Shown in pieces: positions 4,900-24,687 of a DNA stretch of 64,000 bases. The DNA is taken from contig NZ_OY764015.1 of assembly GCF_963667775.1 (NCBI RefSeq), forward strand, positions 3,251,643 through 3,315,642, written 5' to 3'. Numbering within the stretch: position 1 is the stretch's first letter; every line of letters starts with the position of its first letter. Made by a program: the position numbers and the translations under genes. Source of the DNA: an uncultured Trichococcus sp. Lineage in GTDB: Bacteria; Bacillota; Bacilli; Lactobacillales; Aerococcaceae. The notes under the pieces are model-generated. The model was not told the origin of the DNA, searched no databases, and saw only the letters and a program-made list of their open reading frames with translations.

Positions 4900-7449
4900 A
4901 TGGACATGTATGAAGCAGAAAAAAGGTTGCAGGAAGTTTTTCAGCAACCACTAAAGGATTATCAGAAACGCCGCATCGTCTTCTGGTATGATAAATCCCA
5001 ATCATTTTCGGATGAACTGAAGGAATATCAACTGGAGGATTTGTTGGTGTTGCGCTGCGATGACCAGCATTATTTTGAAACGAAGTATTTGGTGGAACAT
5101 GTGCATCCCGAACAGAACGTACTCATCTATTTTGAGCATGAGCGGCCGGAGAACGAAAAGAATCCGTTGTTGGATATGTATTTTTACAGCCAAGAATTTA
5201 AAATGGACCCCATGGAGAATCTGAAGGATGAATTGGGCATCCGGTTTGAGGCAAGTGATGTGTTCTTCAAATCCTATCAATTGTTTTTTAATAATAAACA
5301 ACGCCGCAAACAATTTGTGAACGTGTTGGCGGAGAAACAAGATATCACCGAAATGGATTTGGAACTTGCGATACTGTGTGTGTTGACCAAGACAAAGGAA
5401 TTGCATCCTTTCGGCGTCTTTCGCTCACTCTTCACGGAGTACGGAAGCGGCCAGGACAATCTTTGGCAACAAGTGGTCAAGTTCGGCAGGCCGGCCGCTT
5501 TTTGGCAATTGGCTAAATTATCCTTCGGTTATGTGCAGGAAACGCCAAGCATCGCCACTTTATGCCAAGCTGTATTCCAAACGAAGTTGCATGCAGAGTT
5601 CGAAGGGAAAATCCCGGCGAATTGGGAGAAGCAGTTGCTGAGACAAGCGAATAACTGCGTCGTATTCCTGAACCGCTGGATGAACCTGCGCGACGAACAG
5701 GGCAGCTACAACCGGCTATCTGATGTACTGTTCGAAGACTTGCAGATCGTGAAGTGGATGAAAAACAAGCCGGCGAAATGGTTGGCGCAGTCAGATACGT
5801 TCCAAGCTTTTGATAAGCAACTGGTAGAAGGCATCGCTGTGCAATTGGCGGAAGGCGCTATCCTATTTGATGAATTCGAGAACATCATCTTGAACCGTCG
5901 CGCGTCCTATTGGTTTGATTCCTTCGGTAATGAGTATGAAGCTTTGCTGGCGGCCAGCCGCTTGCTGAAGCAAATTCATTTGATTGAAAAGGAAGGGTTC
6001 CCTTATCAGAAAGAGGCATTCTGGAAAAGCTATCAGGAACGCTATTATCAATTGGATAGCTATTATCGCCAATTCTACGTTGCCTTTGACAAAGGGAGCG
6101 CGTTGTCCGATGCTTTTGCGGACTTGCGCATGACGGTAGAAAACTATTACAAGAATGGTTTTCTTGCCAAATTGGCCGAGACTTGGATGACCTTCTTCAA
6201 AGATGCGACTGCTTTTTCGGTTGAGAATACCTTGAAGCAGGAGCGTTTTTACAAAGATTGGGTCAGTCCCTATGCTGTAAAAGAAAACCGGATCTTCGTG
6301 ATCATTTCGGATGCCTTGCGCTATGAAGTAGCCGTAGAGTTGGGCCAACAACTGGAGGCAAGTATGCACTACAATGTGACGACACACGCGTTACAGGGGG
6401 TCGTTCCGTCCTACACGGAACTGGGCATGGCAAGTCTCCTGCCGCATCATCAGTTAAGCCTGTCCGCAGCCGGCGAGGTTGTTGCCGATGAAATGGGCAC
6501 AAAAGGCCTGCACCAACGGAATGCCGTCTTGGAAGCCAAGTTGGGTGTAGACAGAGCGAAGGCCGTCGATGCCAAAGCAGTATTGAACAGTTCCAGAAGC
6601 GAACTGCGGGAAATGTTTAAAGGCAGCAACTCAATCTACTACATCTATCACAATACGATTGATGCAATCGGGGACCATGCCGCCAGCGAAAGCCATGTCT
6701 TCGAGGCTGTCGAACTTGCACAGCAGGAACTGATTCGATTGATCGACAAACTCTTCAACGGAGTCAGTGCCGTTCGCTTCCTTGTGACGGCGGATCACGG
6801 CTTCCTTTATACGCGGGATACCTTGCGTACGTTGGATAAAGTGAATGCCGATAGAACGGATGTCATCGCCTCGAACCGTCGTTTCTTCACGAATCGGGAA
6901 GCTGACAGCCAGAATCCGGGATTGCTGGATTTCAAAGTGGATGCCTTGGCGGATGAAGATGTGTATGTTCATATACCAAGGGGGGCCGCTCGATTAGCTA
7001 TTCAAGGCGGCGGATCCAACTTTGTCCACGGTGGTATTTTGCCTCAGGAAGTGATGATACCTGTCTTGGATATCACGACGGAGCGCGGCAAGGAAATGCA
7101 TAAATCAGTGGATGTGCAATTGATCAGCAACACCGACCGCATCACGAACATCGTTACCTACCTTGATTTCCTACAGGTACAAGCTGTTTCAGTGGAACGA
7201 AGGGCAAGGAAAGTGAAACTGTACTTCAGCGATGGGATGGATAATCTTATTTCCAATGAAGTCACGCTATTGGCGGATTCGCCCAATGAACAGGCCATTG
7301 ATCGGATGGTTCGTGAGAAATTTGTCTTGATGAGCCAAGCCTATGATCTGCTCAGCGAGTACCAATTCATCATGATTGATCTGGAAACAGGAGAAGAAAT
7401 CAACCGCAAGAAATTTGTGATTGATTTGCCGGATGCAGGATTATTTTAA
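4900..7449 (+). CDS. pglZ: BREX alkaline-phosphatase-fold protein PglZ (type A)
   Basis: An 849-residue protein whose central segment matches the PglZ domain: a metal-binding motif FVIISDALRYE in the alkaline phosphatase fold (about residues 466-476) and FLVTADHGFLY further on (about residues 627-637), the DHGF being typical. PglZ is the hallmark protein of all BREX/Pgl phage-defence systems and acts with PglX and BrxC; its enzymatic role is not settled. The start is ATG 4900 with GAGGGG six bases upstream. In type 1 BREX the next gene would be brxL. Here the next element is instead a tracrRNA, and the BREX-linked brxD and brxHI appear only after 12 kb of CRISPR-Cas and hicBA sequence. Confidence 0.93.
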   Translation: MDMYEAEKRLQEVFQQPLKDYQKRRIVFWYDKSQSFSDELKEYQLEDLLVLRCDDQHYFETKYLVEHVHPEQNVLIYFEHERPENEKNPLLDMYFYSQEFKMDPMENLKDELGIRFEASDVFFKSYQLFFNNKQRRKQFVNVLAEKQDITEMDLELAILCVLTKTKELHPFGVFRSLFTEYGSGQDNLWQQVVKFGRPAAFWQLAKLSFGYVQETPSIATLCQAVFQTKLHAEFEGKIPANWEKQLLRQANNCVVFLNRWMNLRDEQGSYNRLSDVLFEDLQIVKWMKNKPAKWLAQSDTFQAFDKQLVEGIAVQLAEGAILFDEFENIILNRRASYWFDSFGNEYEALLAASRLLKQIHLIEKEGFPYQKEAFWKSYQERYYQLDSYYRQFYVAFDKGSALSDAFADLRMTVENYYKNGFLAKLAETWMTFFKDATAFSVENTLKQERFYKDWVSPYAVKENRIFVIISDALRYEVAVELGQQLEASMHYNVTTHALQGVVPSYTELGMASLLPHHQLSLSAAGEVVADEMGTKGLHQRNAVLEAKLGVDRAKAVDAKAVLNSSRSELREMFKGSNSIYYIYHNTIDAIGDHAASESHVFEAVELAQQELIRLIDKLFNGVSAVRFLVTADHGFLYTRDTLRTLDKVNADRTDVIASNRRFFTNREADSQNPGLLDFKVDALADEDVYVHIPRGAARLAIQGGGSNFVHGGILPQEVMIPVLDITTERGKEMHKSVDVQLISNTDRITNIVTYLDFLQVQAVSVERRARKVKLYFSDGMDNLISNEVTLLADSPNEQAIDRMVREKFVLMSQAYDLLSEYQFIMIDLETGEEINRKKFVIDLPDAGLF

Positions 7450-7492
7450 TAACACTGTTTAAATTTTTGGATAATAAAGTTTAAGAAAGTGT

Positions 7493-7521
7493 TTGCATTT
7501 CATTGGATAGTAGGTTATAGT
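7493..7521 (+). promoter_or_regulatory. tracrRNA promoter
   Basis: TTGCAT and TATAGT are separated by exactly 17 bases, placing the transcript start near 7528, just before the anti-repeat. Confidence 0.8.
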
Positions 7522-7527
7522 TTGTTT

Positions 7528-7632
7528 ATAAAGTTTTAGCCGACTTTATAAGGAAATTATAGTAAGAGCTCCCTTCGGGGACTCTCGCAAAGCTCTAACC
7601 CCAGTTTCTTCGGAAGCTGGGGTTATCTTTTT
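7528..7632 (+). ncRNA. tracrRNA of the type II-C CRISPR system
   Basis: The transcript would start near 7528. An anti-repeat occupies 7534-7563 and reads almost the same as the last 30 bases of the plus-strand array repeat, with four differences. Paired with the reverse-complement crRNA repeat these become two mismatches and two G-U pairs, a good duplex. After it come an AGAGCT...AGCTCT stem (7565-7596) containing a nested GGG/CCC hairpin with a TTCG loop, and then the terminator hairpin. Because the anti-repeat must be complementary to crRNA, the array must be read from the minus strand. The gene is unusual in being separated from cas9 by an unrelated fic gene. Confidence 0.88.
7597..7632 (+). 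terminator. tracrRNA terminator hairpin
   Basis: A twelve-pair stem starting AACCCCAG and closing CTGGGGTT around a TTCG tetraloop, followed by ATCTTTTT. It is both the 3' structure of tracrRNA and its terminator. Confidence 0.9.
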
Positions 7633-7730
7633 GGGTTTTATTGAAAAATAAAGTCAAAAAATTCAAAAAATTGACTTTATATGTTTTGTTGAGTAAAATA
7701 AATTGGAATAATGATTTTAGGAGGGGGATC

Positions 7731-8852
7731 ATGGCAAGAAGAGGAATAGCTAAATTACCAATCGTTGTATCAACCGAAAAGGCGCTTGAAATTTTCCAGT
7801 TGTTGGCAGATGTAAACAGAAAGATAGGTCGCATGAAAAGTGAATTTAGTCATTCCGTTGTGAATGACTCAGTCGTTAACATGTTTTCTTTGAAAGAATC
7901 AGTCCAGTCAACCAGAATAGAAGGAACGCAAGTTACATTTACGGATATGGTAGAAGAAAGAGGCGAAAAAAATCCGAGTTGGGAAAGAATTGAGGTGCTC
8001 AATTATCAAGAAGCTTTACAACAAGGCTCTTCAAGTATAAGGTCAGGTTATCCCATCAGCACACGTCTAATTAAGGAATTGCACCGAATATTAATGGAGA
8101 ACGCTAGAGGGGCGAATGCCTCTGGAGGGGAATTCCGGAAAATTCAAAACTTCATTGGACCAACAAACCGGATAGAAGATGCAGTCTATATTCCTGTTGA
8201 TGCAAATGAAATAGATAGCTATATGGAAAATTTAGAATTTTATATAAACGGAACCTCGCATAGTAGTTTTAGAAAATTCAACAAAATGGACGGATTCGTT
8301 TTTGATGAGGAATGTGATCCAATCATTAAAGCTGCTGTTATGCACGCTCAATTCGAATCGATCCATCCTTTTTTGGATGGCAACGGCAGGTTAGGAAGAA
8401 TCTTAATCGCCTTAATAGCGATAAAAGAGGATTTAGTTGATGTCCCGGTATTCTTTGTCAGTGAAGAATTGGAAAAGGAGCGCGCTCGTTACTACGATTT
8501 GCTTAATGGTGTTAGAGGGGACAATCCTGATTGGTATGCATGGATTAAGTTCTTCATTACAGCATGTGCCCGAATGACAGACACGCTCTTAAGCAAATTG
8601 AAAGCTGCAGAGGATTTGGCTTTAAAAGGACTGAAATTATGTACGCTTGAGTCTGAAAAAAACATTTGGTTATATACTTTTTCTGATCCTTATACAACTG
8701 CAGCGCGCGTTGCAGAAAATTTGAGCATGTCCCCTGCAACTGCTCGTAAAGGATTGAGAGCTCTATCTGATGCAGGCCTTTTGTACGCGGATGAGAGCAC
8801 GATCAGGAACAGGAAGTATCGCAACTATGATTTGATGAGGATTTTGGACTGA
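7731..8852 (+). CDS. Fic family protein with C-terminal winged helix
   Basis: A 373-residue protein starting at ATG 7731 behind AGGAGGGGG; a possible TTG at 7641 lies in the tracrRNA terminator tail and is not used. The Fic catalytic motif HPFLDGNGRLGR starts at H212. An N-terminal STRIEG (residues 60-65) fits the [S/T]xxxE[G/N] inhibitory motif of self-inhibited Fic proteins. The C-terminus carries a helix-turn-helix-like segment (SMSPATARKGLRALSDAG). Fic enzymes generally transfer AMP from ATP to protein hydroxyls, and this Fic-HTH architecture is widespread. It lies between tracrRNA and cas9, with its own terminator, inside a defence island. A toxin-like or regulatory role is possible but not shown. 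Confidence 0.9.
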   Translation: MARRGIAKLPIVVSTEKALEIFQLLADVNRKIGRMKSEFSHSVVNDSVVNMFSLKESVQSTRIEGTQVTFTDMVEERGEKNPSWERIEVLNYQEALQQGSSSIRSGYPISTRLIKELHRILMENARGANASGGEFRKIQNFIGPTNRIEDAVYIPVDANEIDSYMENLEFYINGTSHSSFRKFNKMDGFVFDEECDPIIKAAVMHAQFESIHPFLDGNGRLGRILIALIAIKEDLVDVPVFFVSEELEKERARYYDLLNGVRGDNPDWYAWIKFFITACARMTDTLLSKLKAAEDLALKGLKLCTLESEKNIWLYTFSDPYTTAARVAENLSMSPATARKGLRALSDAGLLYADESTIRNRKYRNYDLMRILD

Positions 8853-8869
8853 ATAAATATCGCTTTGGA

Positions 8870-8905
8870 CAACAGAGGCTTTCTTCGGAGGCCTTTTTTT
8901 TGTTG
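8870..8905 (+). terminator. Terminator after fic
   Basis: An AGGCTT/AGGCCT stem within flanking ACAACA...TGTTGT, with a run of eight T. It isolates fic from the cas operon. Confidence 0.75.
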
Positions 8906-8931
8906 TATAAAACGTTTTCTTTTGGTACGAT
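8903..8931 (+). promoter_or_regulatory. Probable cas9-cas1-cas2 promoter
   Basis: TTGTAT, 17 bases, TACGAT, located after the fic terminator and 45 bases before the cas9 start. Confidence 0.55.
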
Positions 8932-8976
8932 AATATTAAAATATTGACATGAATTGAAGAATCAGGAGGCCTTTAA

Positions 8977-11900
8977 ATGGGAATCAAGATTGGATTGGAT
9001 GTGGGAATCACATCGGTTGGGTATGCTGTGTTGCGTACTGATGATGAAGGTGTCCCTTATAAAATAGAAACACTTAATTCTGTTATTTTTCCGGCTGCGG
9101 AAAATCCAAAATCGGGCGAATCATTGGCGGCACCACGTAGAGGCAATAGGGGTTCGCGAAGAAGGACACGCCGTACCAAGTTCCGTAAATACCGCACGAA
9201 GCGCTTGTTTATTCGTCATGGTTTACTGACGGCCGAGGAAATTGAAGATGTTTTCAATCAAAAATTAGGGCATAAAACGATTTATGAATTGCGGACAGAA
9301 GCTTTGGATCGGAAGCTTACAAACGAAGAGTTATTCCGGATTCTGTACTTCTTTGCAGGACATCGCGGCTTCAAATCGAACCGTAAGGCAGAAACGGTAA
9401 TCGCAAATGTCGATGCAGAAACAGGAATGGTGTTGGCTGCCATCAATGAAATCCAAGCAGCATTGGAAGCGGGGACTTACCGTACTTTGGGCGAATATAT
9501 GCACGCCCATCCGAAATATGAGGAGCATAAACGAAATAAAGATGGCAAAGATCGTTATTTAGGTACCGCTCGACGAGATTTTATCACTGACGAAATTAAA
9601 CAGATCTTAAATGCTCAACGCGGATTCGGCAATGAGGCTTTGACGGATGCATTCGAACAGGAATTCATCGGTAACGCTGAAGGCGAAGCAGCCGGTATCT
9701 TTACTGCTCAGCGCGACTTCGATGAGGGCCCAGGTAAGGGAAGTCCTTACGGTGGAGATCAAATCGAAAAGATGATCGGCTGGTGTACCTTTGAGAAGGA
9801 AGAACACCGTGCGGCAAAAGGTACGTATACTTTCCAATATTTTGAACTGTTGAGTAAATTGAATAATCTGAAAATCCAGGAATTTGCCGGAGATGATTGG
9901 AAGGAATTGAATCCTGATCAAAGGCAAATGATCATCGATAAAGCCTTCAGCAAGGATAAGCTGCAATATGTGGAAATTAAAAAATTGTTGAAGTTGGAAC
10001 CGGAAGCGAAATTCAATTTGTTGTCCTATGGCAGCAAGACTGAACAGGACAAAACCGAGAAGACTAATTTTGTAGCACTACGCAGCTACGACAAAGTACG
10101 CAAGGCGCTCGGTAAGGAAGTCTACGAAGCGATGCCGAACAGCCTGAAGGATGAAATCGGAACAATCTTGACGACTTATTCCAGCGACAAGAGCCGGCGC
10201 AGAGTGTTTGCTGATAGGTTGAGTTTGACAGCTGAGCAAATTGAAGCACTCTTGCCGCTTACGATGACACAATACGGACACCTATCATTAAAAGCAATGC
10301 GAAATATCATCCCTTATTTAGAGATGGGGCTTATTTATAATGAAGCGTGTAAGGCTGCGGGATATGATTTCAAACATAACGCAATAGACAGAGCCTTCAT
10401 ACATGAAAATGTGTCCAATCCGGTCGTAAAACGCGCCGTCAGCCAATGTATTAAGGTCGTAAACCAATTGACCCGCGAGTACGGCAAACCGGATGCAATC
10501 AATATCGAGTTTTCCCGTGAGCTTGGAAAGAACTTTGATGAACGCCGTAAAATTGAGAAGGGCCAGAAAGAGAACATGGCGCGCAATGAGAGTATTGCCA
10601 ATGAGCTACGCGAAAACGGCATAGCTGTTAACGGAGAGAACATCACGCGGTTGAAATTGTGGAGAGAACAGGGAAATATGGATCCTTATACTGGTCAATA
10701 CATTCCTTACGAGGAAATTTTCTATGGAAATTATGATGTCGACCATATCATTCCTTACAGTATTTCATTCGATGACAGCTTTGGGAATAAGGTATTGGTG
10801 AGTTCAGCAGCCAACCGAGAGAAGGGTAACCGGATCCCGATGGAATATCTGGCGAATGATCCGATTCGCATAAAGAGCCTGGAGAATATTGCGGGAACCA
10901 TCCGTAATTATAATAAACGCGAAAAATTGTTGAAGAAAAAATTGAGCAAAGAAGATGTGGAAGGCTGGAAATCACGCAATATCAATGATACGCGCTACAT
11001 TGCCAGATTGTTGCGTAATTATTTCAGACAGAACATCGAATTTTCCGAAAAAGAAAACATTAAAGAGAAAGTTGCCGTTAATAACGGTACTGTAACTGCC
11101 AGAATGCGAGCGCGTTGGGGTCTAGGGCCTAAACATAGGGATAATGACCGGCATCATGCGATGGATGCAGTCGTAGTTGCTTGTATGACTCCAGCATTTG
11201 TCAGAAGGGTCACAGTCTACAGTAAGCGCCAAGAAGTGCGCTTCAACAAATCCTTGTGGAATGAGGGCACCTTGGAATCAGATCTAGCCCACATGAGTTT
11301 GGAGAAGCGTGAAGAATACGAAAAAATGTTCAGTAAAGCTTTCCCTCAGCCTTGGGAAGGGTTCCGGGACGAATTGAATGCCCGCTTATCGGATAACCCG
11401 AAAGAATTGATCAAGAACATCAAGAATACTTTGGGAACCTATACCGATGAAGAAATCGATAAACTGAAGCCGATGTTTGTGGTGCGAAGACCGAATAAGA
11501 AAATTACTGGGCCGGCACATCTGGAAACAATCCGCAGTGGTAAGTTGTTGAATGAAGGAAAATCCCTGAGCCGAGTAAGCATCAGTAAGCTGAAGCTGAA
11601 CAAGAATGGCGAAATCGGAACGGGAAATGCTGAGTTTTATAAGTCTGAGGATAATGGCTGGATGCCTGTTTATAATGCCTTGAAAGCAGAAATGGAGAAA
11701 AATGGCGGCAGCGGTGAGAAAGCCTTCCCCGATGGTGTGTTTACTTATACGCAAGAAAATGGGCAAACCCATACCGTCCGAAAAGTGAAAGTCGTTCAAA
11801 AATCTACGCTGCAAGCCGTACTGAATGACGGTAAAGCAATGGCGGATAATGGATCAATGGTGCGTATTGATGTGTTCAGAACACCTAAGAAGTATGTGTT

Positions 11901-12306: not shown

Positions 12307-12311
12307 CAGCG

Positions 12312-13214
12312 ATGGGGTTTCGAAATATTTATATAGAAAATCCAGCCCGATTAAGCATCAAAAATCGTCAACTGATTATTTCACAGGACCAGGATATTTC
12401 GATCCCTGTTGACGATATTGATAGCATTGTGATTGATTCTTTACAATGCACATTAACAGCACCAACCATTTCTTTTTTGGCAGAAAATCAAGTTGTCCTC
12501 TATACATGCAATAAGCAGCATATGCCCTGTGCTGTTTTGAATCCACTCGGAAATCATTCAAGGAAGCTAATCATCCTACAGAATCAGATGGGTGTGACTA
12601 AACGATTCAAAGATAGGGCTTGGCAAAAAATCATTCGGCAAAAAGTGTTGAATCAAGCTAGGTGTTTGGAGCTGACTTCTTCTCCCAATGTGGCTGAAGT
12701 GAATAAGTTGGCCACAGAAGTTTTGGAAGGAGACAAGTCTTTCAAAGAATCTAGTGCAGCAGCCCTATATTTTCGTTCACTTTTCGATACAAATTTTAAT
12801 CGCAGGCATGAAACGGTTCATAACGCTGCGCTTAATTATGGATATGCCATAGTGCGTGGAGCGATATCCAGGGATTTGTGTGCATATGGTTTTGAGCCAG
12901 CACTGGGAATCCACCACCACAATGAACTGAACGCATTCAATCTTGCGGACGATCTGATTGAACCGTTCAGGCCATATGTAGATTTATGGGTGGCACAAAA
13001 TGTTGATCCCGAAGAAAAAGTTCTTACTTCCTCTTACAAACGTGATCTTGTTTCCTTATTATTTACAGAAGTAAAAATCGATAATGAATTACATTCCCTT
13101 ACCAATGCAATCCGAAAAACTGTATCTTCCTACACAAGTTGTTGCAGAAATAATTCAACGGCTCATCTGAAATTACCAGAATTGATCCCGTTGCGACCGC
13201 ACGAGTATGAGTAG
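12312..13214 (+). CDS. cas1: CRISPR integrase Cas1
   Basis: A 300-residue type II Cas1, the integrase subunit that inserts new spacers as a complex with Cas2. The conserved C-terminal helical core is visible (NYGYAIVRGAISRDLCAYGF, then GIHHHNELNAFNLADDLIEPFRP), including the His and Asp/Glu metal ligands. ATG 12312 is preferred because GAAGAGGTGA, at the end of cas9, gives a proper ribosome site; a GTG at 12303 overlapping cas9 is possible but would overlap that site. The gene overlaps cas2 by eight bases, indicating translational coupling. Confidence 0.96.
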   Translation: MGFRNIYIENPARLSIKNRQLIISQDQDISIPVDDIDSIVIDSLQCTLTAPTISFLAENQVVLYTCNKQHMPCAVLNPLGNHSRKLIILQNQMGVTKRFKDRAWQKIIRQKVLNQARCLELTSSPNVAEVNKLATEVLEGDKSFKESSAAALYFRSLFDTNFNRRHETVHNAALNYGYAIVRGAISRDLCAYGFEPALGIHHHNELNAFNLADDLIEPFRPYVDLWVAQNVDPEEKVLTSSYKRDLVSLLFTEVKIDNELHSLTNAIRKTVSSYTSCCRNNSTAHLKLPELIPLRPHEYE

Positions 13215-13530: not shown

Positions 13531-13541
13531 ACACGTCAAAC

Positions 13542-13572: not shown

Positions 13573-13582
13573 CGCGCGAGGT

Positions 13583-16500
13583 GTTTTATTTTAGCCGATT
13601 TTGTAAGGAAACTATAGCCATCGAATGAAGTCCCGGTCGCTGACATAAGTTTTATTTTAGCCGATTTTGTAAGGAAACTATAGCAAATTGTATTTCCATC
13701 ATGTCTGCCATATGGTTTTATTTTAGCCGATTTTGTAAGGAAACTATAGCGCTTCTGCATAGGATTCGCCGGTATTTTTTGTTTTATTTTAGCCGATTTT
13801 GTAAGGAAACTATAGCCTTATCGTAACAATTTCAATTCCTTTTTCTGTTTTATTTTAGCCGATTTTGTAAGGAAACTATAGCAGTGGCGTCAATTTCTTT
13901 GTATAGGGGGAAGTTTTATTTTAGCCGATTTTGTAAGGAAACTATAGCATTTGATTCTGCTTGCCAAATATGCTTCCAGTTTTATTTTAGCCGATTTTGT
14001 AAGGAAACTATAGCTCAAATACGATAAGCTTCTTCTCTCTATCTGTTTTATTTTAGCCGATTTTGTAAGGAAACTATAGCGTATGTTCCTTCAGAAATGC
14101 CAATGGCTTCGTTTTATTTTAGCCGATTTTGTAAGGAAACTATAGCGCTGATGGCTTTGGTCGGTATGCAGGGGACGTTTTATTTTAGCCGATTTTGTAA
14201 GGAAACTATAGCGAGGTGGACAACTACGCGCGCCCGGCCTACGTTTTATTTTAGCCGATTTTGTAAGGAAACTATAGCGCTGAATGTTCGTATACTCCTT
14301 GATGCCGGGTTTTATTTTAGCCGATTTTGTAAGGAAACTATAGCCGTATTGTTTAGCCATGTTAATCAATCTCCGTTTTATTTTAGCCGATTTTGTAAGG
14401 AAACTATAGCTCATGGCACTATCCCCTTTATAATTTATTCGTTTTATTTTAGCCGATTTTGTAAGGAAACTATAGCAAAGTAACTGATGTTTGAAGTAAC
14501 ATGTAGGTTTTATTTTAGCCGATTTTGTAAGGAAACTATAGCATAAGGAGGGATAAAATGGCACGGACGAAAGTTTTATTTTAGCCGATTTTGTAAGGAA
14601 ACTATAGCCGGTTTAGATGTAACAATAATCAAATACATGTTTTATTTTAGCCGATTTTGTAAGGAAACTATAGCCGATCGTGATAGATGTATATTTACTA
14701 GCTAGTTTTATTTTAGCCGATTTTGTAAGGAAACTATAGCTGGCGGGCAAGAGAGGTGTGGAGGTTTTTAGTTTTATTTTAGCCGATTTTGTAAGGAAAC
14801 TATAGCTTGTTATCAATCACTCGTTCAAAGTCATCAGTTTTATTTTAGCCGATTTTGTAAGGAAACTATAGCTGTAATTGCCGAGTGTTTCTCTTGCGTG
14901 TAGTTTTATTTTAGCCGATTTTGTAAGGAAACTATAGCTACCCGATGGTTTGTTAGTGTTGAATACGAGTTTTATTTTAGCCGATTTTGTAAGGAAACTA
15001 TAGCAGCACACAAAGCGTGGATTACTTGACCGAGGTTTTATTTTAGCCGATTTTGTAAGGAAACTATAGCTTGCTTGTATATGATCGTTGTATTTATTCA
15101 GTTTTATTTTAGCCGATTTTGTAAGGAAACTATAGCTTAATAGATAAGTATAAAGCATGGTTTCATGTTTTATTTTAGCCGATTTTGTAAGGAAACTATA
15201 GCCGCTTTCCGAGTTTTTCACGACCTTTATAAGTTTTATTTTAGCCGATTTTGTAAGGAAACTATAGCGAAAAGGCATGTGGATTGGCGAAGCTTACAGT
15301 TTTATTTTAGCCGATTTTGTAAGGAAACTATAGCATCTTGCTTCTTAATTCATAGGTTTTGGCCGTTTTATTTTAGCCGATTTTGTAAGGAAACTATAGC
15401 CAACGGTTTGATTAACTCTTTTAAATAAGAGTTTTATTTTAGCCGATTTTGTAAGGAAACTATAGCTTCAAGGCTTTGGGGGTTCGGGGGGGTCGAGTTT
15501 TATTTTAGCCGATTTTGTAAGGAAACTATAGCCGTGAACCTCATCGAATAGGGCTCCATGTAGTTTTATTTTAGCCGATTTTGTAAGGAAACTATAGCAG
15601 TTTTGCCGTTGCATTATTGGTTAACTCCGTTTTATTTTAGCCGATTTTGTAAGGAAACTATAGCATTTGAATTTCGTGACAACTCACCGCCTTAGTTTTA
15701 TTTTAGCCGATTTTGTAAGGAAACTATAGCAGTGTGATTGCTTCGTACATAATAGTCACTGTTTTATTTTAGCCGATTTTGTAAGGAAACTATAGCTGAT
15801 ATTCAACGAGGCGACATAACGGTTGGTTTTATTTTAGCCGATTTTGTAAGGAAACTATAGCAATGCTTTTAAGGTTGATTGTTCCAGCTGAGTTTTATTT
15901 TAGCCGATTTTGTAAGGAAACTATAGCTGTTCGTATCGGTATTTGTTTGGACTACACGTTTTATTTTAGCCGATTTTGTAAGGAAACTATAGCGCGCCGG
16001 AGATGTTCGTTTTAAGGAATTTAGTTTTATTTTAGCCGATTTTGTAAGGAAACTATAGCGTGGAACCTCAGCAACGAGGGGCATGGCATGTTTTATTTTA
16101 GCCGATTTTGTAAGGAAACTATAGCATAAATTTTTCAATATCAGTTTTATAATTTGTTTTATTTTAGCCGATTTTGTAAGGAAACTATAGCGTTTTTGCA
16201 ATTGCTCTTGAGATGGTTGTGGTTTTATTTTAGCCGATTTTGTAAGGAAACTATAGCACTCCCGCTAGTGTGCCATCGCCGCCGACTGTTTTATTTTAGC
16301 CGATTTTGTAAGGAAACTATAGCGAGAACGCCGCTCGACGCAACTGCCATTTAGTTTTATTTTAGCCGATTTTGTAAGGAAACTATAGCCGTGTTCATCA
16401 GGTGTACCGCCATAGGTGAGTTTTATTTTAGCCGATTTTGTAAGGAAACTATAGCTCCTGCGATCCCGGACGGAACGTGCTGCGGGTTTTATTTTAGCCG

Positions 16501-18440
16501 ATTTTGTAAGGAAACTATAGCTGATGTTGCCGCCGTTCTCGTTCCTTATCTGTTTTATTTTAGCCGATTTTGTAAGGAAACTATAGCGCCAATTTGACAC
16601 GTTCCATGTAACCCATTGTTTTATTTTAGCCGATTTTGTAAGGAAACTATAGCCTCAGATACCTGTAACCGTTTACTATCAAAGTTTTATTTTAGCCGAT
16701 TTTGTAAGGAAACTATAGCTGCATCCGCTCTAACACCTAACAATTCACCGTTTTATTTTAGCCGATTTTGTAAGGAAACTATAGCGTGGCGCCCTGGTAT
16801 AGGCAAGGCGGGTAAGTTTTATTTTAGCCGATTTTGTAAGGAAACTATAGCCGTGATATAATAAAATTAATTAAGAAATCGGTTTTATTTTAGCCGATTT
16901 TGTAAGGAAACTATAGCCATCGGAGAAACACTCAACAACCGATACCGGTTTTATTTTAGCCGATTTTGTAAGGAAACTATAGCGCAGGGGATGAACTAGG
17001 CGAGAACTTTATTGTTTTATTTTAGCCGATTTTGTAAGGAAACTATAGCCTTCCGCTTTATTGCCAATTCCAATTCCGTGTTTTATTTTAGCCGATTTTG
17101 TAAGGAAACTATAGCCGGTTGATCGTTCGGGTGTTCGTCGCGCGGGTTTTATTTTAGCCGATTTTGTAAGGAAACTATAGCTGGCCGAAAAGCCTTATAT
17201 ATCAACGATTTTGTTTTATTTTAGCCGATTTTGTAAGGAAACTATAGCTGGTCCTTACGTTTTTCAGCCTCACGCTCAGCGTTTTATTTTAGCCGATTTT
17301 GTAAGGAAACTATAGCACGTCGTCATGGCCCAAGTCCTCAACGATTGTTTTATTTTAGCCGATTTTGTAAGGAAACTATAGCTGGTCCTTACGTTTTTCA
17401 GCCTCACGCTCAGCGTTTTATTTTAGCCGATTTTGTAAGGAAACTATAGCACGTCGTCATGGCCCAAGTCCTCAACGATTGTTTTATTTTAGCCGATTTT
17501 GTAAGGAAACTATAGCCGTCACCTCTTGATAGTTGCCTTCGACGATGTTTTATTTTAGCCGATTTTGTAAGGAAACTATAGCTTTAACTCTGGATAGCGT
17601 TCAAATTCTTCTGTTTTATTTTAGCCGATTTTGTAAGGAAACTATAGCTCGCGGCACGCTTGACCGGACATAGCAATAGTTTTATTTTAGCCGATTTTGT
17701 AAGGAAACTATAGCATGTGAATTCACGCTATGCAAAAGCATTGGGTTTTATTTTAGCCGATTTTGTAAGGAAACTATAGCCCTACCATCATGTTATTGCC
17801 GTTCATCCCAGTTTTATTTTAGCCGATTTTGTAAGGAAACTATAGCTGCTGTAGCTCTTTCTCTATCTCTTTATCTGTTTTATTTTAGCCGATTTTGTAA
17901 GGAAACTATAGCCAAACAGGGTGCAACCGAAATTGGGTTCATGTTTTATTTTAGCCGATTTTGTAAGGAAACTATAGCCATTGGAACAGCAAAGACACTG
18001 GACTTTAGGTTTTATTTTAGCCGATTTTGTAAGGAAACTATAGCACCATTACAAGAATAGTCACCACAGGCACTGTTTTATTTTAGCCGATTTTGTAAGG
18101 AAACTATAGCGAATCAGCCGTGATAACTTCCTTCGCATAAGTTTTATTTTAGCCGATTTTGTAAGGAAACTATAGCCATAGGGCTCTTTCATGTTCATAC
18201 TGGACTGTTTTATTTTAGCCGATTTTGTAAGGAAACTATAGCCGAATGATGTTGCAAAAACACTTGGTTACCGTTTTATTTTAGCCGATTTTGTAAGGAA
18301 ACTATAGCCACGAGCCACGCGATCTTTTACGATTTTCTGTTTTATTTTAGCCGATTTTGTAAGGAAACTATAGCTCAAGCCTTCTCATTCTGTTAAAAGA
18401 TGCCGTTTTATTTTAGCCGATTTTGTAAGGAAACTATAGC
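13583..18440 (-). CRISPR. CRISPR array, 74 repeats and 73 spacers
   Basis: On the plus strand each 36-bp repeat begins GTTTTATTTTAGCCGA and ends GTAAGGAAACTATAGC. I counted 74 copies by position. All look identical, including both terminal ones. Spacers are 30 bp except one of 29 (before 15826), one of 31 (before 17213) and two of 32 (17249-17280 and 17383-17414), so the normal period is 66. The tracrRNA anti-repeat orientation implies transcription on the minus strand, with crRNA repeats starting GCTATAGTTTCC, which resembles other II-C repeats. In that orientation TAAAAT sits five bases from the repeat end and could be a -10 element, as in II-C arrays whose repeats carry promoters. There is no room for a long leader at either end. 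Confidence 0.98.
17213..17480. repeat. Tandem duplication of two repeat-spacer units inside the array
   Basis: The 134-bp block 17213-17346 (two repeats plus a 32-base and a 30-base spacer) is repeated exactly at 17347-17480, so spacers 17249-17280/17383-17414 and 17317-17346/17451-17480 are identical pairs. Recombination or slippage between identical repeats explains it better than independent acquisition. Confidence 0.95.
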
Positions 18441-18455
18441 TGGGAACATGTATAT

Positions 18456-18484
18456 GAAAAAAGAGTCCAGCAAGCTAGACTCTT
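18456..18484 (-). terminator. hicB terminator next to the array
   Basis: AAGAGTC and GACTCTT form a stem followed, on the minus strand, by TTTT. It overlaps the hicB stop codon and ends only 16-20 bases from the last CRISPR repeat. Confidence 0.75.
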
Positions 18485-18876
18485 AATTTTTCTTTCAAGG
18501 CTTCGGTTAATGTCGCAGAGAAATTGATGCCGGCTTCTTCAGCCTTTTCAGCCAGATCGACAGGGATTGTCGTATTCTTTCTGACAACAGGCATTTTTAC
18601 TTTTTTTGCGGCCGCAATCAGATCAACCATAATATAGCTCACAATCGCTTCGGGATTATCTGCTTGGACATCTGGTAAGTAGGAGGCTTTCGGCAGGTCT
18701 TTTTCATCGTAAAGCATCAATTCCAATGCCTCGGCACCTTTAGCAAGTGCATCTGGAATTCCAACACCTTGGGAAATGGCCCCCGGGACATCCGGAAAGG
18801 TTACTGTGTATGTTCCTGGATCATTTTCTCTGTCATCTAGAATCGCTGGATAAGCAACATAGTGTGTATGTGCCAT
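18475..18876 (-). CDS. hicB: HicB family antitoxin
   Basis: A 133-residue protein with the HicB fold: an N-terminal degenerate RNase-H-like domain (YPAILDD...TYTVTFPDVPGAISQG, residues about 8-38) and a C-terminal DNA-binding segment (PVDLAEKAEEAGINFSATLTEAL) of the ribbon-helix-helix type. HicB neutralises the mRNA interferase HicA and represses the operon. ATG at 18876 has AGGAGGAA in front. It lies downstream of hicA on the minus strand, the usual toxin-first order. The antitoxin frame is intact although the toxin is broken. Confidence 0.9.
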   Translation of the reverse strand: MAHTHYVAYPAILDDRENDPGTYTVTFPDVPGAISQGVGIPDALAKGAEALELMLYDEKDLPKASYLPDVQADNPEAIVSYIMVDLIAAAKKVKMPVVRKNTTIPVDLAEKAEEAGINFSATLTEALKEKLRV

Positions 18877-18907
18877 GATGATTTCCTCCTCTTTATTAAT
18901 AAAACAA

Positions 18908-19099
18908 TTATTTTAGTCCGGCTTGCTTAAGGATGTTGTTGTACGTACCAGGAGCTATTTCATCTTTGAGGCTGCTGTAAGGGACAGTTACTTTATGTCC
19001 TGTTTCATCTTCGTATCGATGATGGTCACCGATGATGCGAACTTCTATAAATCCATGCTCCTTTAATAACTTTAAAACTTGTCAGGCTGTCTATGGCAT
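18908..19099 (-). pseudogene. hicA: HicA toxin gene with two in-frame stop codons
   Basis: Read on the minus strand from ATG 19099, the 64-codon frame encodes MP-stop-TA-stop-QVLKLLKEHGF and continues through GDHHRYEDETGHKVTVPYSS to KQAGLK, a clear HicA match with its catalytic His. Codon 3 is TAG and codon 6 is TGA; the latter could derive from CGA by a C-to-T change, the former from AAG. A ribosome site (CAGGAG) and a good promoter remain. No alternative start lies between the stops and the conserved region. HicA is a small double-stranded-RNA-binding-fold RNase; this copy should be non-functional unless the stops are read through. Confidence 0.85.
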
Positions 19100-19124
19100 T
19101 TCTGCAACTCCTGTCCATATTCAC

Positions 19125-19153
19125 ATTATATACGCACTATGCGCATATTTCAA
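19125..19153 (-). promoter_or_regulatory. hicA-hicB promoter
   Basis: On the minus strand TTGAAA (19153-19148), exactly 17 bases, then TATAAT (19130-19125), a near-consensus promoter 26 bases upstream of the hicA start. Confidence 0.85.
19128..19148. promoter_or_regulatory. Probable HicB operator
   Basis: The inverted repeat ATATACGCA-CTA-TGCGCATAT has one mismatch and fills the space between -35 and -10, the expected place for autorepression by HicB. Confidence 0.6.
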
Positions 19154-19347
19154 TGCAGTGATTAATTTAATCAAATTTATTCTCCAGAGTTTTTCTATCC
19201 ATCAATCCTTTAAAATATACGAAATTTTACTTTGGAAATTTTTTAAAATTTCGTCTTTTCAACAATATTTTACTCACAAACGTTTTGTGATTTGACTTGA
19301 ATGCAATTGAAGAGTGCTTTATTCCAATCTTTACAGAACACGCGTTC

Positions 19348-19376
19348 TTGAATATGTGCCTCAATAGACGTATACT
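19348..19376 (+). promoter_or_regulatory. Promoter of the terB-brxD-brxHI operon
   Basis: TTGAAT, 17 bases, TATACT. The transcript would start near 19383, which rules out translation starts upstream of that point and supports ATG 19420. The rest of the 320-base gap between hicA and this gene is A+T-rich and holds only the divergent hic promoter. Confidence 0.75.
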
Positions 19377-19419
19377 TAAGACGTATCTTTACAGCGACTG
19401 GGGAAGGGGGACCTCGAAA

Positions 19420-21291
19420 ATGTTCGAATTCATAAATAAAATATTCAAAAATAAAAAACTAACCGAAGCAGAAAAGACATCAATCATCGAATTGGTGCAT
19501 ACGGAGGAGTCTTTCATCAATCCACGAGATCTTATCGCGGAGCAGGAACGTCAGAAAATAGCTCAAAAGAAAGCCGAGAAAAAGGCTGCGGAAAAAGCTT
19601 GGATCAGCTACGTTTCGCCACCAGTAAGATTGAATGACAATTTTACACAGCAAATCGAGGAAGTGGTTAGTGCATTATTTGAAAGATTATGCACTGTCGT
19701 CGATGTTGAGCTCAAAAAAAAGCATAAGAACATCAAACACGTGAAACATGAGCGTTATTATTACCAAGTGACCGCTTTTGATGAAATCTATCGGCTATCG
19801 AGAGAGGTGGTCTGTTCTACTTACAGGCTGGATAATGTCCAGGTGTCTGTGTTTTTTTCTTACGATCTGAGAACCATGCTGCCCAGAGATATCCAAAAAA
19901 TCATTACGCATGAGGTTGATGCATTCCGGGGAAATGTACCCTTTCCGGATGAAGAGACTAGGGATAAATTTGGCTTGACGCCATTCGGCACCAAAATGGT
20001 CTGGTGGGATCCGTCAGGAGTGCTGCGGGACAAGCAACTCTTTGAAAGTAACGAAATGGATTATTTCGATCAGCTGAGGAAAAGGGTGACGAGGTTTACG
20101 GAAGTGCCGACTGTCATGACCCTTTGTTTGGGAAAATACGCAGACCTCATGCAGATTGTGTTGCATGACCTTGAGGATGGATCCATCAAGTGGAAAATCA
20201 AGCCCAATAATTATTTCAGGAAATATTTCCGATTGCCGCTAGATGATGAGCGTATCTGGGCAGAAACAGCCGGGCTGCAAATGGACCTTTATCTCCTGGC
20301 TGAAAACATGGTCCGCCAGGAAATCGAAGGGATCCGCGTGCTGCCCGCTGAGGAAAGCATGCAAAATCTGCAAAAATATTTGCCTATAGAAACGTTCCAG
20401 AGGATCCAAATATATCTGAGCCAAAAAGTTGAGCTGGAGCTGGATTATCAGACCGTAACAGCCTTGCGGAACGTGAACAAGACTGTTTGGCATGAGGCCG
20501 CCAATCTGCTCATCAGACAATCGCTTGAGCAGGTTAGTGGGCTGCTTGAGGTTGTTGCACAAGATTCGGATTTGAAAAAGATAGCCACGAAGGTGATCAA
20601 GCAAAGCGAGGATCCGGACAAGCGCATCCTGTTTATTTTCTTGATGGAAAAGATGGATTTGCCGGTTTCAAAAGCGCTGCAAAAAGAACGGGATGGCTTC
20701 GTTCATCCAACCAGACAGCCCGATTATCAGCGGTTACTGGCTGATGCGGATCTGACTTTCGAAAGTTTGCCAGAGCTTTTGAAGGACTGCACGCAACCGA
20801 TGCGCAGAGAAATCAAGCTGGACACAGCCTTGATCACCGCATCACATTCTGCCTTGGACACCATCATTGAGATGGTCGACACCTACCTGAGTGAGGATGA
20901 AACAAGCGAAGGGATGGATTCGGCTGTGAGCTTGAACATTATTACTGAGATGGAGATGTCGTCGGCTGAGGAACAAAGTGAAGCGGAAAGTGTGGTCTCC
21001 ACATCGGTATCTGCTACGGCCTGTATTATAGAAGAAGCCGAAAATCCGGACAGTGAGCAGGAGTCTGAGCATATGCTGTTCTTGAAACAGATGGTGGCAA
21101 ACAATGGGATATCTTTGGATGATTTCAAGGAACAGGCAAAAAATAAAGGCAAACTTCATCAGGCATATCTAACGGAATTGAACGAAGTGCTGTATGAAAT
21201 ATTTGATGATCAAGTGTTGGTGATCAGCCAGCAACAGGTCATCATTGAAGAGGATTTTATGGAAGAAATGAGGGAATGGATAGATGGCTGA
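19420..21291 (+). CDS. TerB-like protein of a BrxD/BrxHI module
   Basis: A 623-residue protein from ATG 19420, preceded by GGAAGGGGGA and the promoter at 19348-19376. In-frame TTG/ATG codons further upstream lie before the promoter. The N-terminal part is rich in Lys/Glu helices (EQERQKIAQKKAEKKAAEKAW), the middle (about residues 90-400) resembles proteins annotated with a TerB N-terminal domain, a Ser/Glu-rich acidic linker spans about 500-560, and the end (FLKQMVANNGISLDDF...) resembles a TerB C-terminal domain. No catalytic motif is evident. TerB-domain proteins occur in tellurite-resistance-like and phage-defence loci. It overlaps brxD by eight bases, so the product likely works with that ATPase. 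The domain names come from memory, not from a search. Confidence 0.65.
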   Translation: MFEFINKIFKNKKLTEAEKTSIIELVHTEESFINPRDLIAEQERQKIAQKKAEKKAAEKAWISYVSPPVRLNDNFTQQIEEVVSALFERLCTVVDVELKKKHKNIKHVKHERYYYQVTAFDEIYRLSREVVCSTYRLDNVQVSVFFSYDLRTMLPRDIQKIITHEVDAFRGNVPFPDEETRDKFGLTPFGTKMVWWDPSGVLRDKQLFESNEMDYFDQLRKRVTRFTEVPTVMTLCLGKYADLMQIVLHDLEDGSIKWKIKPNNYFRKYFRLPLDDERIWAETAGLQMDLYLLAENMVRQEIEGIRVLPAEESMQNLQKYLPIETFQRIQIYLSQKVELELDYQTVTALRNVNKTVWHEAANLLIRQSLEQVSGLLEVVAQDSDLKKIATKVIKQSEDPDKRILFIFLMEKMDLPVSKALQKERDGFVHPTRQPDYQRLLADADLTFESLPELLKDCTQPMRREIKLDTALITASHSALDTIIEMVDTYLSEDETSEGMDSAVSLNIITEMEMSSAEEQSEAESVVSTSVSATACIIEEAENPDSEQESEHMLFLKQMVANNGISLDDFKEQAKNKGKLHQAYLTELNEVLYEIFDDQVLVISQQQVIIEEDFMEEMREWIDG

Positions 21292-22612
21292 AATCAAGCT
21301 GAGAAAGAAGGATGCCCAAACGATTATTGCCTCGCTTGAGGCGGGCGTCGTACCTGTAAAAGGGGTACAGCATGTGTTGGTGGGCAGGAGCAATGAGGTC
21401 AAGGAAATCATCGACACCTTGCAAAAATTGGAGGAAGGCAATAGCGATCTGCGGTTTTGGGTAGGCGACTTCGGTTCGGGCAAAAGTTTCGTTCTGCGGA
21501 CGATCGAATCGCTGGCGCTGCAAAAGAATTTCGTAGTCTCCACAATCGACTTGACCCCGACGCGTCGTTTCTATGATTCATCCGGGAAGGCCTTGGCGCT
21601 CTATAACGAAGTCGTCAATAAAATCGTCATCAAGAATAACCGCGACGGGAATGCGATCGAAATGATCGTCCAGCAATGGATTCAGGTTCTGCTCGAGCAG
21701 ATTGCCGCGGAAAACAGCCTCACCGTTCCTGTTTTGATGGAAAAAACCCATTGGAAATTGGTGGAGAATGCTATCCTGAAGACGACGAATTCCTTCTATT
21801 CATCGGGGCTTTCCTATGAATTTGGGCAAGCGCTGATGAAGTATTTCGAAGGGATTGCCGGCGATAATATGTCCCTGCAGATTGAGGCGATTCGCTGGAT
21901 CCGCGGTGATATCACAACGAAAACGGAAGCCTCAAAAGAATTGGGCATCAAGAACGTCATCAACGACTTGAACTATCTCATCGCATTGAAAAATCTGGCG
22001 GAATTGTTCCTGAAAATCGGCTACAAGGGATTTGTCATAAACTTTGATGAGTCAGTCAATCTGTATAAATTACCCCGTTCTTTGACCCGGGAAAAAAATT
22101 ATGAAATGATCCTCAATCTGTATAACGAAACGAAAACGAATGAAGCTAAAGGCCTATTCATCAATTTTGGCGCAACGAAGAACACGGTATATGACGAACG
22201 CAGAGGATTGGCCAGCTATGGCGCTTTGAAAACACGCTTCGGGAACGAATTGATGAAAAATAAGGACTATGTCAATGTGAACAGCACCGTCATCGATCTG
22301 AAGCCGTTGACACCGGAAGAGATCTTTATCCTTTTGACCAAGCTGTTGGAAATTTACAATACAGCCTATCAAACGACGCTGATGGTGAAGGACAGCGAAA
22401 TCCAGCAATACATGGAAGACCAGCTGAACCGCCCGGGAGCTGCAGCATTTTTGACGCCGCGGTCCGTCATCAAGGATTATATCGAAATTCTGTCCTTGCA
22501 GCGCCAGAACCCGGACCATTCTTTCAGCCATATACTTGCCGATCGCTTCGGCAGAAAGTCTTCCGTTGTGGTGAAGGATGCAGATGACCACGATGAGATA
22601 GAGGTTTACTGA
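21284..22612 (+). CDS. brxD: BREX ATP-binding protein BrxD (DUF2791)
   Basis: A 442-residue P-loop ATPase. Walker A is GDFGSGKS (residues 61-68, K67) and Walker B is FVINFDES (D255, E256). The segment after the P-loop (VSTIDLTPTRRFYDSSG) is typical of the DUF2791/BrxD family, which accompanies BrxHI in type 2 and type 6 BREX systems. The family function is unknown beyond its need for defence in those contexts. It overlaps the TerB-like gene by eight bases and brxHI by one, so the three are made together. The nearest pglX and pglZ genes are 12 kb upstream, beyond the CRISPR locus. Confidence 0.85.
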   Translation: MAEIKLRKKDAQTIIASLEAGVVPVKGVQHVLVGRSNEVKEIIDTLQKLEEGNSDLRFWVGDFGSGKSFVLRTIESLALQKNFVVSTIDLTPTRRFYDSSGKALALYNEVVNKIVIKNNRDGNAIEMIVQQWIQVLLEQIAAENSLTVPVLMEKTHWKLVENAILKTTNSFYSSGLSYEFGQALMKYFEGIAGDNMSLQIEAIRWIRGDITTKTEASKELGIKNVINDLNYLIALKNLAELFLKIGYKGFVINFDESVNLYKLPRSLTREKNYEMILNLYNETKTNEAKGLFINFGATKNTVYDERRGLASYGALKTRFGNELMKNKDYVNVNSTVIDLKPLTPEEIFILLTKLLEIYNTAYQTTLMVKDSEIQQYMEDQLNRPGAAAFLTPRSVIKDYIEILSLQRQNPDHSFSHILADRFGRKSSVVVKDADDHDEIEVY

Positions 22613-24687
22613 TGCAGGCATTCGATAGTCTCAGCCGGGATATCCAGCAGTACATCTATGATAAAGGCTGGCCAAGCTTAACGCGCATCCAAAATGCAGC
22701 CATCAAACAGGTTGTCAATACCGATCACAACCTGATTCTGTCCGCTCCGACGGCATCCGGGAAAACGGAAGCGGCATTCATCCCGGCGCTGAACAGTGTG
22801 GAAGATTGGGAAACGGGGCTGAAGGTGCTGTACATCTCTCCTTTGAAAGCACTGATCAATGATCAATTCCAGCGCATCAGCGAACTCAGTGAGTATCTGG
22901 ATATTCCGATTACGCGCTGGCATGGTGAAGTATCCCAGGCGCAGAAAAAGAAAGTTGTCAATCAACCGAAAGGGGTTCTATTGATCACGCCGGAATCGAT
23001 TGAGGGCATGCTGGTGAATCGTCCTGGCGAAGCGCAGCACCTCTTTAAAGGGGTGGAGTGGATCATCATCGATGAACTGCACAGTTTCCTGGGGACGGAA
23101 CGGGGTGTTCATTTGCAATCGTTGCTGCAACGAATCAGCCAATTCATGCAAGCGCCACGTTTCATCGCGATGAGTGCAACCTTAAACAAGAAGGATTTCG
23201 GTTATGCGAAAGCCTTCTTCGGCAGCCAGCGGGATACGGATATTCTCGTGGATCGCGATAAAAATGATCTGCTCATCACGATAGACTACACGAGTGGTGA
23301 GGCAGGCCCATTCGTTGCAAGAGAATCCCTGGCAGCGATCTATCAGTATTCCAAAACGGAAACGATGCTGATTTTTCCGAATTCCCGCAATCGGGTGGAA
23401 GAAATCACCCATAAATTGGATAAGATGGCAAAAAAGGAGAACGCGCCCATCCGCTATTTTGCCCATCATTCATCGGTGGACAAACTTCTGCGTGAAGAAG
23501 TGGAATTTTTTGCCAAAAACAACGAGGATCAGCTGTTCACGATCACCTGCACCTCCACTTTGGAATTGGGAATAGACATCGGATCTGTGGACAGCGTGGT
23601 GCAGTACGGCTCCCCGCCGTCCACGTCTTCGCTCAGCCAAAGACTGGGGCGCAGTGGCCGGAGAACCCACCAAAGCATCCTGCATATTGTAGAAGATGAC
23701 TCCTGGGAAATGCTTCAGACCTATGCCGCACTGGATCTGCTGGAACGCGGTGAATTGGATGCCACGGAAATGATCGAGACACCCTACAATGCGTTGGCGC
23801 ATCAAGTGATGGCGGTTCTCTTCCAAAAGGTCAGTATGCCGATGCTGCAATTGCTGCAGCTTAATAAAACCTTTCCGGTCTGGAGAGCGATTCCGGATGA
23901 AGATTTGGCGGTATTGATCGACTACATGGTGGAAAAGGATTTTATCGAAATCATGGATGATGAGGCGATTGTCGGCTTGGAGGGGGAACGACTGCTGCGT
24001 TCCAGGGATTTCTACGCGCTGTTTTTCACGACCAGTGATTTTTCTGTCCATTACCAGCACGAGCGCATCGGCAGCCTGCCGTTCACGCCAGAAATCCAAA
24101 TCGAAAGCAAAATTCTGTTGGCGGGCAGGGTGTGGATCGTGAAAGATATCGATGCCAAAGCCAAGCGAATCATGGTGGAAATGACAAAAGAAGGAAGGCC
24201 GCCGAAATTCATCAGCGACGAAGGCTTTGTCTCCAACGAAGTGCGCGAAAATATGGAAAAGCTCTTGCGGACAGGGGAGTATCTGAACCTGAACAATGAC
24301 AAAATCACGCGTGATTTTGATTTTCTGAAGAGTGCACTCTACTACGATGACGGGAACTATTGGTATGAGGACAATCAGACGAGTATAGGCATCGTGACAT
24401 TCAGGGGGACCAAATTCAACATCGCGTTGTTGCTTCTAATCAAGAGCATTGCGGCTGAGGGTGAAAAATATCAATTGCATGACAAGCACTCCTTGATAAC
24501 GGGTCCCGACATAAAAAGAATGGTGGAACGACTTGCTGGAGGGGATGTTTCTTTGGACACTGTCATAGTGTATCTGGAGAAAAACGAGAAGGCCATCGAA
24601 GAGTTGACGGCCCATCAAAAATTCATGCAATTGGTTCCCAAAGCCTTGAAAATCAAGTGGATCTTGAACAATTTCTTTTCGGTTTGA
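22612..24687 (+). CDS. brxHI: Lhr-like DEAD/DEAH-box helicase BrxHI
   Basis: A 691-residue superfamily 2 helicase. Motifs in order: Walker A SAPTASGKTEAA (K51), DELH (154-157), SATL, and the C-terminal RecA domain with TSTLELGIDIGSVD and QRLGRSGRR. The residues around these motifs resemble Lhr-like helicases, and BrxHI is the BREX member of that group. ATG 22612 is in the overlap TGATG with brxD. No terminator was found in the next 90 bases. In BREX types 2 and 6 brxD-brxHI close the operon after pglZ, which supports reading these genes as part of, or derived from, a BREX locus. Confidence 0.85.
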   Translation: MQAFDSLSRDIQQYIYDKGWPSLTRIQNAAIKQVVNTDHNLILSAPTASGKTEAAFIPALNSVEDWETGLKVLYISPLKALINDQFQRISELSEYLDIPITRWHGEVSQAQKKKVVNQPKGVLLITPESIEGMLVNRPGEAQHLFKGVEWIIIDELHSFLGTERGVHLQSLLQRISQFMQAPRFIAMSATLNKKDFGYAKAFFGSQRDTDILVDRDKNDLLITIDYTSGEAGPFVARESLAAIYQYSKTETMLIFPNSRNRVEEITHKLDKMAKKENAPIRYFAHHSSVDKLLREEVEFFAKNNEDQLFTITCTSTLELGIDIGSVDSVVQYGSPPSTSSLSQRLGRSGRRTHQSILHIVEDDSWEMLQTYAALDLLERGELDATEMIETPYNALAHQVMAVLFQKVSMPMLQLLQLNKTFPVWRAIPDEDLAVLIDYMVEKDFIEIMDDEAIVGLEGERLLRSRDFYALFFTTSDFSVHYQHERIGSLPFTPEIQIESKILLAGRVWIVKDIDAKAKRIMVEMTKEGRPPKFISDEGFVSNEVRENMEKLLRTGEYLNLNNDKITRDFDFLKSALYYDDGNYWYEDNQTSIGIVTFRGTKFNIALLLLIKSIAAEGEKYQLHDKHSLITGPDIKRMVERLAGGDVSLDTVIVYLEKNEKAIEELTAHQKFMQLVPKALKIKWILNNFFSV

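Follow-up and report, generated by a model that had tools for sequence, protein, structure and literature searches.

A type 1-like BREX locus without BrxL and a type II-C Cas9 system are conserved neighbours, with Shango beyond them in Trichococcus

The window analysed here, the terminal 64 kb of one 3.3-Mb Trichococcus contig, carries a BREX locus, a CRISPR-Cas locus and a Shango trio in close succession (Table 1). On the plus strand, brxC-pglX-pglZ is followed by a tracrRNA gene, fic and cas9-cas1-cas2; a CRISPR array and a minus-strand hicB-like gene come next, and sngA-sngB-sngC, again on the plus strand, complete the run. The brxC frame, 1202 aa in full, begins to the left of the window (L002:17277 into the window) and contains the Walker A motif GFFGSGKS. 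Just left of the window lie brxA and brxB, preceded by an abiEi-like gene (L002:15049-15726); in another Trichococcus genome, G069, an extra 281-aa ORF that is not seen in the window's genome separates the abiEi-like gene from brxA. The original prediction for this DNA gave the gene order correctly from brxC to the last of the three plus-strand genes, including a type II-C CRISPR system after pglZ, and its names for those three genes were wrong. The hicBA pair that it proposed is half there: hicB is intact, and no intact hicA frame was found on the minus strand beside it at 18880-19124, where the sole ORF is one of 32 aa (19026-19124).

Table 1. Annotated features of the window; positions are counted from its first nucleotide.
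Feature	Position	Strand	Evidence
brxC, 3' part	1..1242	+	PADLOC BrxC; Pfam BrxC domains
pglX (brxX), adenine methyltransferase, 1168 aa	1242..4748	+	PADLOC PglX 1423 bits; NPPY motif
pglZ, 849 aa	4900..7449	+	Pfam PglZ 1.1e-48; PADLOC PglZ; conserved polar residues kept
tracrRNA: anti-repeat, two hairpins, T-run terminator	7530..7635	+	anti-repeat matches array repeat
fic (Fic/DOC family), 373 aa	7731..8852	+	Pfam Fic 1.1e-18
cas9, type II-C, 1109 aa	8977..12306	+	Pfam HNH_4, RuvC_III; PADLOC Cas9; catalytic motifs intact
cas1, 303 aa	12303..13214	+	Pfam Cas_Cas1; PADLOC Cas1_II
cas2, 107 aa	13207..13530	+	Pfam CRISPR_Cas2; PADLOC Cas2_II
CRISPR array, 74 repeats (36 nt), 73 spacers (71 different)	13583..18440	-	strand inferred from tracrRNA anti-repeat
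hicB-like antitoxin	18475..18876	-	Pfam HicB_lk_antitox 4.5e-10
sngA (Shango, TerB-C domain)	19420..21291	+	PADLOC SngA 52 bits, 2.4e-14, C-terminal part only; Pfam TerB_C
sngB (Shango ATPase)	21284..22612	+	PADLOC SngB 465 bits vs BrxD 146
sngC (Shango DEAD helicase)	22612..24687	+	PADLOC SngC 622 bits vs BrxHI 378

The BREX half consists of brxA-brxB-brxC-pglX-pglZ in one run, with motifs kept and the five genes in the order that they have in type 1 BREX (brxA-brxB-brxC-pglX-pglZ-brxL). In type 1 BREX brxL follows pglZ, whereas here cas9 occupies that place, and the whole genome yielded no match to BrxL (PF13337, E 0.001). In type 6 BREX, brxE precedes brxA. Of the upstream genes that had been sought, brxA and brxB are present, and PADLOC assigned the four ORFs scanned to the left of brxC to AbiEi, BrxA, BrxB and, in one case, to nothing, so that brxE was not met among these four. 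PglZ is described as a nuclease in which T538 and H741 matter in Escherichia fergusonii (PMC12205998), and we take these, by order and spacing only, to correspond to T506 and H710 of the window's PglZ, which are kept in every locus compared (9/9 and 12/12). BrxL is described as a needed effector of BREX in E. coli and Acinetobacter and not in Salmonella (PMC12839542, PMC12205998). A 2026 survey of 3,937 BrxC-anchored taxa found BrxL in 74% of them; it also describes auxiliary nucleases (BrxU/GmrSD, HKD-BrxL and OLD-TOPRIM) that, like the Cas9 of this locus, are extra nucleases beside the BREX core genes, and the word Cas9 does not occur in its main text (PMC12839542).

The CRISPR-Cas half has the composition of type II-C: Cas9, Cas1 and Cas2 without Csn2 or Cas4, an array directly after cas2, a tracrRNA with an anti-repeat, 36-nt repeats and 30-nt spacers. 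Among solved structures, the closest chains belong to Cas9s about 1080-1150 aa long, 21dz_A being the best. The array, with its 36-nt repeat at a 66-nt period, is not attributable to chance; within it, a 134-nt stretch is exactly duplicated in tandem (17211-17478). Rfam at gathering score matched nothing within the window, the tracrRNA included. With the terminator of the tracrRNA placed after pglZ and ahead of cas9, these two genes are probably not on one transcript. The window's own spacers matched no phage or plasmid, those of the G084 array matched no phage, and four of the 73 own spacers, searched as exact patterns in viral contigs, gave no match; with no targets found, no PAM can be derived.

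Relatives of the pair were identified in 395 Lactobacillales genomes, one per species. Cas9 matches at E up to 1e-100 occur in 10 of them, nine being full-length at identities of at least 55% and the tenth, in G315, truncated at 45% identity. The nine genomes with the full-length Cas9 are also the nine best of 39 PglZ matches, and their loci constitute what we call clade A (the window, G069, G070, G067, G051a, G084, G119, G166 and G180; the G067 locus spans two contigs, which have the array repeat in common). The tracrRNA and cas9 follow pglZ in 9/9 of these loci, and in none does brxL do so; in the genomes searched, this Cas9 family was met only beside clade-A BREX (9/9). The start of cas9 lies 230-1531 bp after pglZ. 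The distance is 230-711 bp in five loci; in those from Trichococcus (the window, G069, G070 and G067), the only four in which fic stands between the two genes, it is about 1.5 kb. The other five show no match to SngB or SngC in the stretch read. Pairs are still seen where PglZ identity has fallen to 40% and Cas9 identity to 54%. The pairing also survives rearrangement in G166, where cas1-cas2 and the array lie between brxA and brxB, with a gap of less than 30 bp from brxA to cas1.

Both halves of clade A look alive, given their intact motifs and their long, differing arrays. The PglX NPPY motif, the BrxC Walker A motif and the RuvC and HNH motifs of Cas9 are intact in 9/9 loci, and in 9/9 the pglZ-cas9 gap contains a tracrRNA with anti-repeat, hairpins and terminator, both sides having changed in 11 of the 30 predicted hairpin pairs. 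The arrays of eight genomes are long and together hold 474 spacers, none of them common to two genomes. Two loci have peculiarities of their own: in G180 (L042:4300-4600) brxA was not found and a short regulator-like ORF precedes brxB, and PglX is only 53% identical between G084 and G119 (L036, L038), against 92-100% for most proteins, as if methylation specificity had been swapped.

The PglZ, BrxC and Cas9 trees all have the form ((G166,G180),((G051a,(G084,G119)),Trichococcus)), with SH-aLRT support for clade A of 99 (PglZ), 98 (BrxC) and 99/94 against G315 (Cas9). Since G051 belongs to the family of Trichococcus and G084/G119 to another, these congruent trees suggest joint transfer of BREX and Cas9, which are inherited together across genera and two families. 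Cas9 and PglZ identities correlate at 0.99, a value driven by close and distant clusters.

A sister group, clade B, comprises 13 PglZ loci at 33-36% identity, none in a genome with BrxL; in clade A, the one genome with BrxL is G051, where brxL follows a second pglZ. Clades A and B form one clade (support 100) on both the PglZ tree (22 rows) and the BrxC tree (16 rows). In 9 of the 13 clade-B loci (G076, G119b, G176, G122, G222, G095, G143, G197 and G080), type II-A, SaCas9-like cas genes and a long csn2-like gene lie beside pglZ, convergent to it in eight and co-directional in G095. Of 345 genomes, 12 have the clade-B Cas9 family, and clade-B BREX is carried by 11 of these; for the exception, G140, no PglZ was among the matches listed. 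In G119 the cas9 beside pglZ (G119b) is cut by a contig edge and the best clade-B Cas9 match lies elsewhere on the contig; in G169 the contig ends in an array of the clade-B repeat family, in G162 it ends 2.4 kb after pglZ, and in both a clade-B Cas9 is found on another contig. The halves can also part: G143 has a broken pglZ with an intact Cas9, G183 keeps csn2 only, and G094 has BREX without CRISPR in the stretches read. Outside both clades, the BREX contig of G628 opens with a CRISPR array, seven exact copies of the core repeat with which its Cas9 contig ends, and no brxL match was seen in the downstream stretch read. The two G628 contigs appear to adjoin; here, as wherever a locus crosses contig ends, we infer adjacency.

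Sixty PglZ loci were compared, 22 of them with brxL after pglZ. Cas9 lies near none of these 22 in the downstream stretches read, which are short at contig ends (e.g. G395, G476), nor upstream in any of the 19 that were read upstream; one brxL-bearing locus, G423, has a type I-C-like array. For adjacency, p = 7e-11 is a rough value that ignores kinship; it sets 21 of 23 loci, counted for any CRISPR part (all 9 of clade A, 11/13 of clade B including the csn2-only G183 and the contig-end array of G169, and G628), against the 0/22 brxL loci with Cas9. The co-occurrence values (p about 5e-18 and 2e-18) likewise ignore kinship and are rough, the clade-B value mixing draws from 395 and 345 genomes. 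Kinship also makes the locus counts much larger than the event counts; as clades A and B share one ancestor, few independent pairing events are implied.

Loss of BrxL does not require Cas9, because with clades A and B and G628 set aside there remain 15 loci whose flanks, as far as read, contain neither brxL nor a Cas9 gene. Eight of these form one long-branched group, with a DrmD/BrxH-kind helicase after pglZ in 4/4 scanned; the other seven (G244, G275, G323, G249, G172, G291 and G146) have no BrxL in the genome and no known replacement, and PADLOC matched nothing to the single downstream protein scanned in each of G275, G323 and G249. Conversely, of eight further Bacilli with a II-C Cas9 at 38-43% identity, seven, some on short contigs, have no BREX beside it, the eighth being G628. 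In G553 and G494 (L079, L080), a II-C Cas9 at 42-43% identity comes after a set of conserved ORFs of 865, 124, 572 and 877 aa; the two of these proteins scanned, in G553, gave no PADLOC match. In plasmid records, PglZ reaches at most about 33% identity among the 60 of 267 matches listed, none of clade A, and Cas9 matches of no more than 39% identity occur in six records.

The three genes beyond the array were originally read as terB-brxD-brxHI of the BREX locus. In type 2 and type 6 BREX, brxD and brxHI come after pglZ; SngB is akin to BrxD and SngC to BrxHI, and the candidate genes score higher as SngB and SngC (Table 1). Shango is defined by a TerB-like protein, an ATPase and a helicase (PMC10250203), and genes of these kinds stand in a row here in the order of that description and of the PADLOC models, SngA differing in that it matches its model in the C-terminal part only. 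By sequence, then, the trio is Shango SngA-SngB-SngC, a system separate from BREX.

The genomic site bears this out. The next gene after Shango, gntR, is present in 12 of 13 Trichococcus genomes, and Shango stands before the same gntR in all 10 of the 13 in which the site was read. What lies on its other side varies. The genome of the window has BREX-Cas9 there, as do G069, G070 and G067, whereas G060 and G066 have type I-C cas genes. In two genomes the site runs into a contig edge, with nothing but a type I-C-like repeat seen in G063 and nothing but hicB in G062. G061 and G068 have no BREX and no CRISPR at the site; their sngA follows the left flanking gene at a distance of about 1.2 and 1.9 kb. 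Since Shango is constant at the site while BREX-Cas9, type I-C or nothing varies, BREX-Cas9 is an exchangeable cassette beside it. Of the two possibilities that the original prediction offered, the second therefore stands: the island is composite, and the trio in it is a system of its own.

We favour, at a probability of roughly 0.6, the reading that the locus is a two-system unit, in which a type 1-like BREX without BrxL is fixed beside a complete type II-C CRISPR-Cas system, with an independent Shango beyond, and in which the first two may act as cooperating layers. BREX and Cas9 probably cooperate as innate and adaptive defence. PglX would mark host DNA, and a BrxB-BrxC-PglX-PglZ complex would block or nick unmarked phage DNA; the stalled or cut phage DNA could then serve both as a target for Cas9 and as material from which Cas1-Cas2 take new spacers, in which case innate defence would feed adaptive defence. 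Restriction cleavage is said to feed type II spacer acquisition (PMC12931967, citing Maguin 2022). Cas9 might also make the decisive double-strand break, a step that in other BREX systems falls to BrxL and associated nucleases. In a stronger form, which we hold doubtful, Cas9 would have taken over BrxL's job as an RNA-guided effector finishing DNA caught by BrxB-BrxC-PglX-PglZ, possibly in dependence on the PglX methylation state; were it true, this would be a BREX system with an adaptive restriction step. Against a strict dependence speak the terminator in the pglZ-cas9 gap and the decay of some clade-B pairs.

The alternative that survives best, possible and yet clearly the less likely, is that two full, independent systems travel in one transferred island and have spread as cargo without a functional tie. 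Each half is indeed complete with its own signals, the halves can part (G143, G094, G183, G140), the Trichococcus slot that holds them also takes type I-C CRISPR, and the common ancestry of clades A and B leaves few events to explain. Such passive carriage sits less well with a pairing that is kept at the low PglZ and Cas9 identities given above, that has outlasted both the change of Cas9 type between the clades and the reshuffling of gene order inside the unit (G166, G095, G628), and that is shown by none of the 22 BrxL loci.

That Cas9 regulates BREX instead of serving it as a nuclease, for example with a guide that represses a BREX promoter, we consider very unlikely. It was suggested by a single CRISPR repeat, inverted, that G166 has a short way upstream of brxB (L040:4428), in an orientation unlike that of the array; the 30 nt flanking that repeat, however, match nothing in the locus better than shuffles do, the tracrRNA is the sole strong repeat-like match outside the array in the other eight clade-A loci (with one weak further match in G067), and the spacers of eight arrays matched none of the loci compared outside arrays. 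A guide directed against BREX itself accordingly has no support. Least credible of all is the original prediction's first reading, a CRISPR system inserted into a type 6 BREX locus so as to part pglZ from its own brxD-brxHI: the kinship of SngB and SngC to BrxD and BrxHI and their position downstream of pglZ speak for it, and we reject it on the Shango scores, on the TerB-C gene that heads the trio, on the five other clade-A loci, in which cas9 follows pglZ with no SngB or SngC match in the stretch read, and on the Shango-only sites of G061 and G068, which come close to the finding named in advance as fatal to a split locus, namely relatives with the trio far from pglZ.

The preferred reading, a BREX-Cas9 unit with Shango as its neighbour, goes beyond what had been expected of this DNA. 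Two interleaved defence systems had been proposed; the adjacency is real, and that description understated it, for the adjacency of BREX and Cas9, as read from the assemblies, is conserved across genera and two families. We recognised no published report of such a pairing in a survey of the literature that drew mostly on the opening lines of abstracts, with most subscription papers, bioRxiv preprints and supplements outside its scope; CRISPR systems near BrxR regulators have been counted (PMC9122601), which is different from a BREX-Cas9 pair. For annotation, the locus is a warning that SngB-SngC is easily mistaken for BrxD-BrxHI. A BrxL-less clade that travels with Cas9 is a natural test of the role of each half, and bears on the way in which BREX stops phages and on the need of some BREX systems, and not of others, for BrxL. 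The pairing suggests a lasting tie between innate, methylation-based defence and adaptive defence, kept as Cas9 changed from type II-C to type II-A between sister clades.
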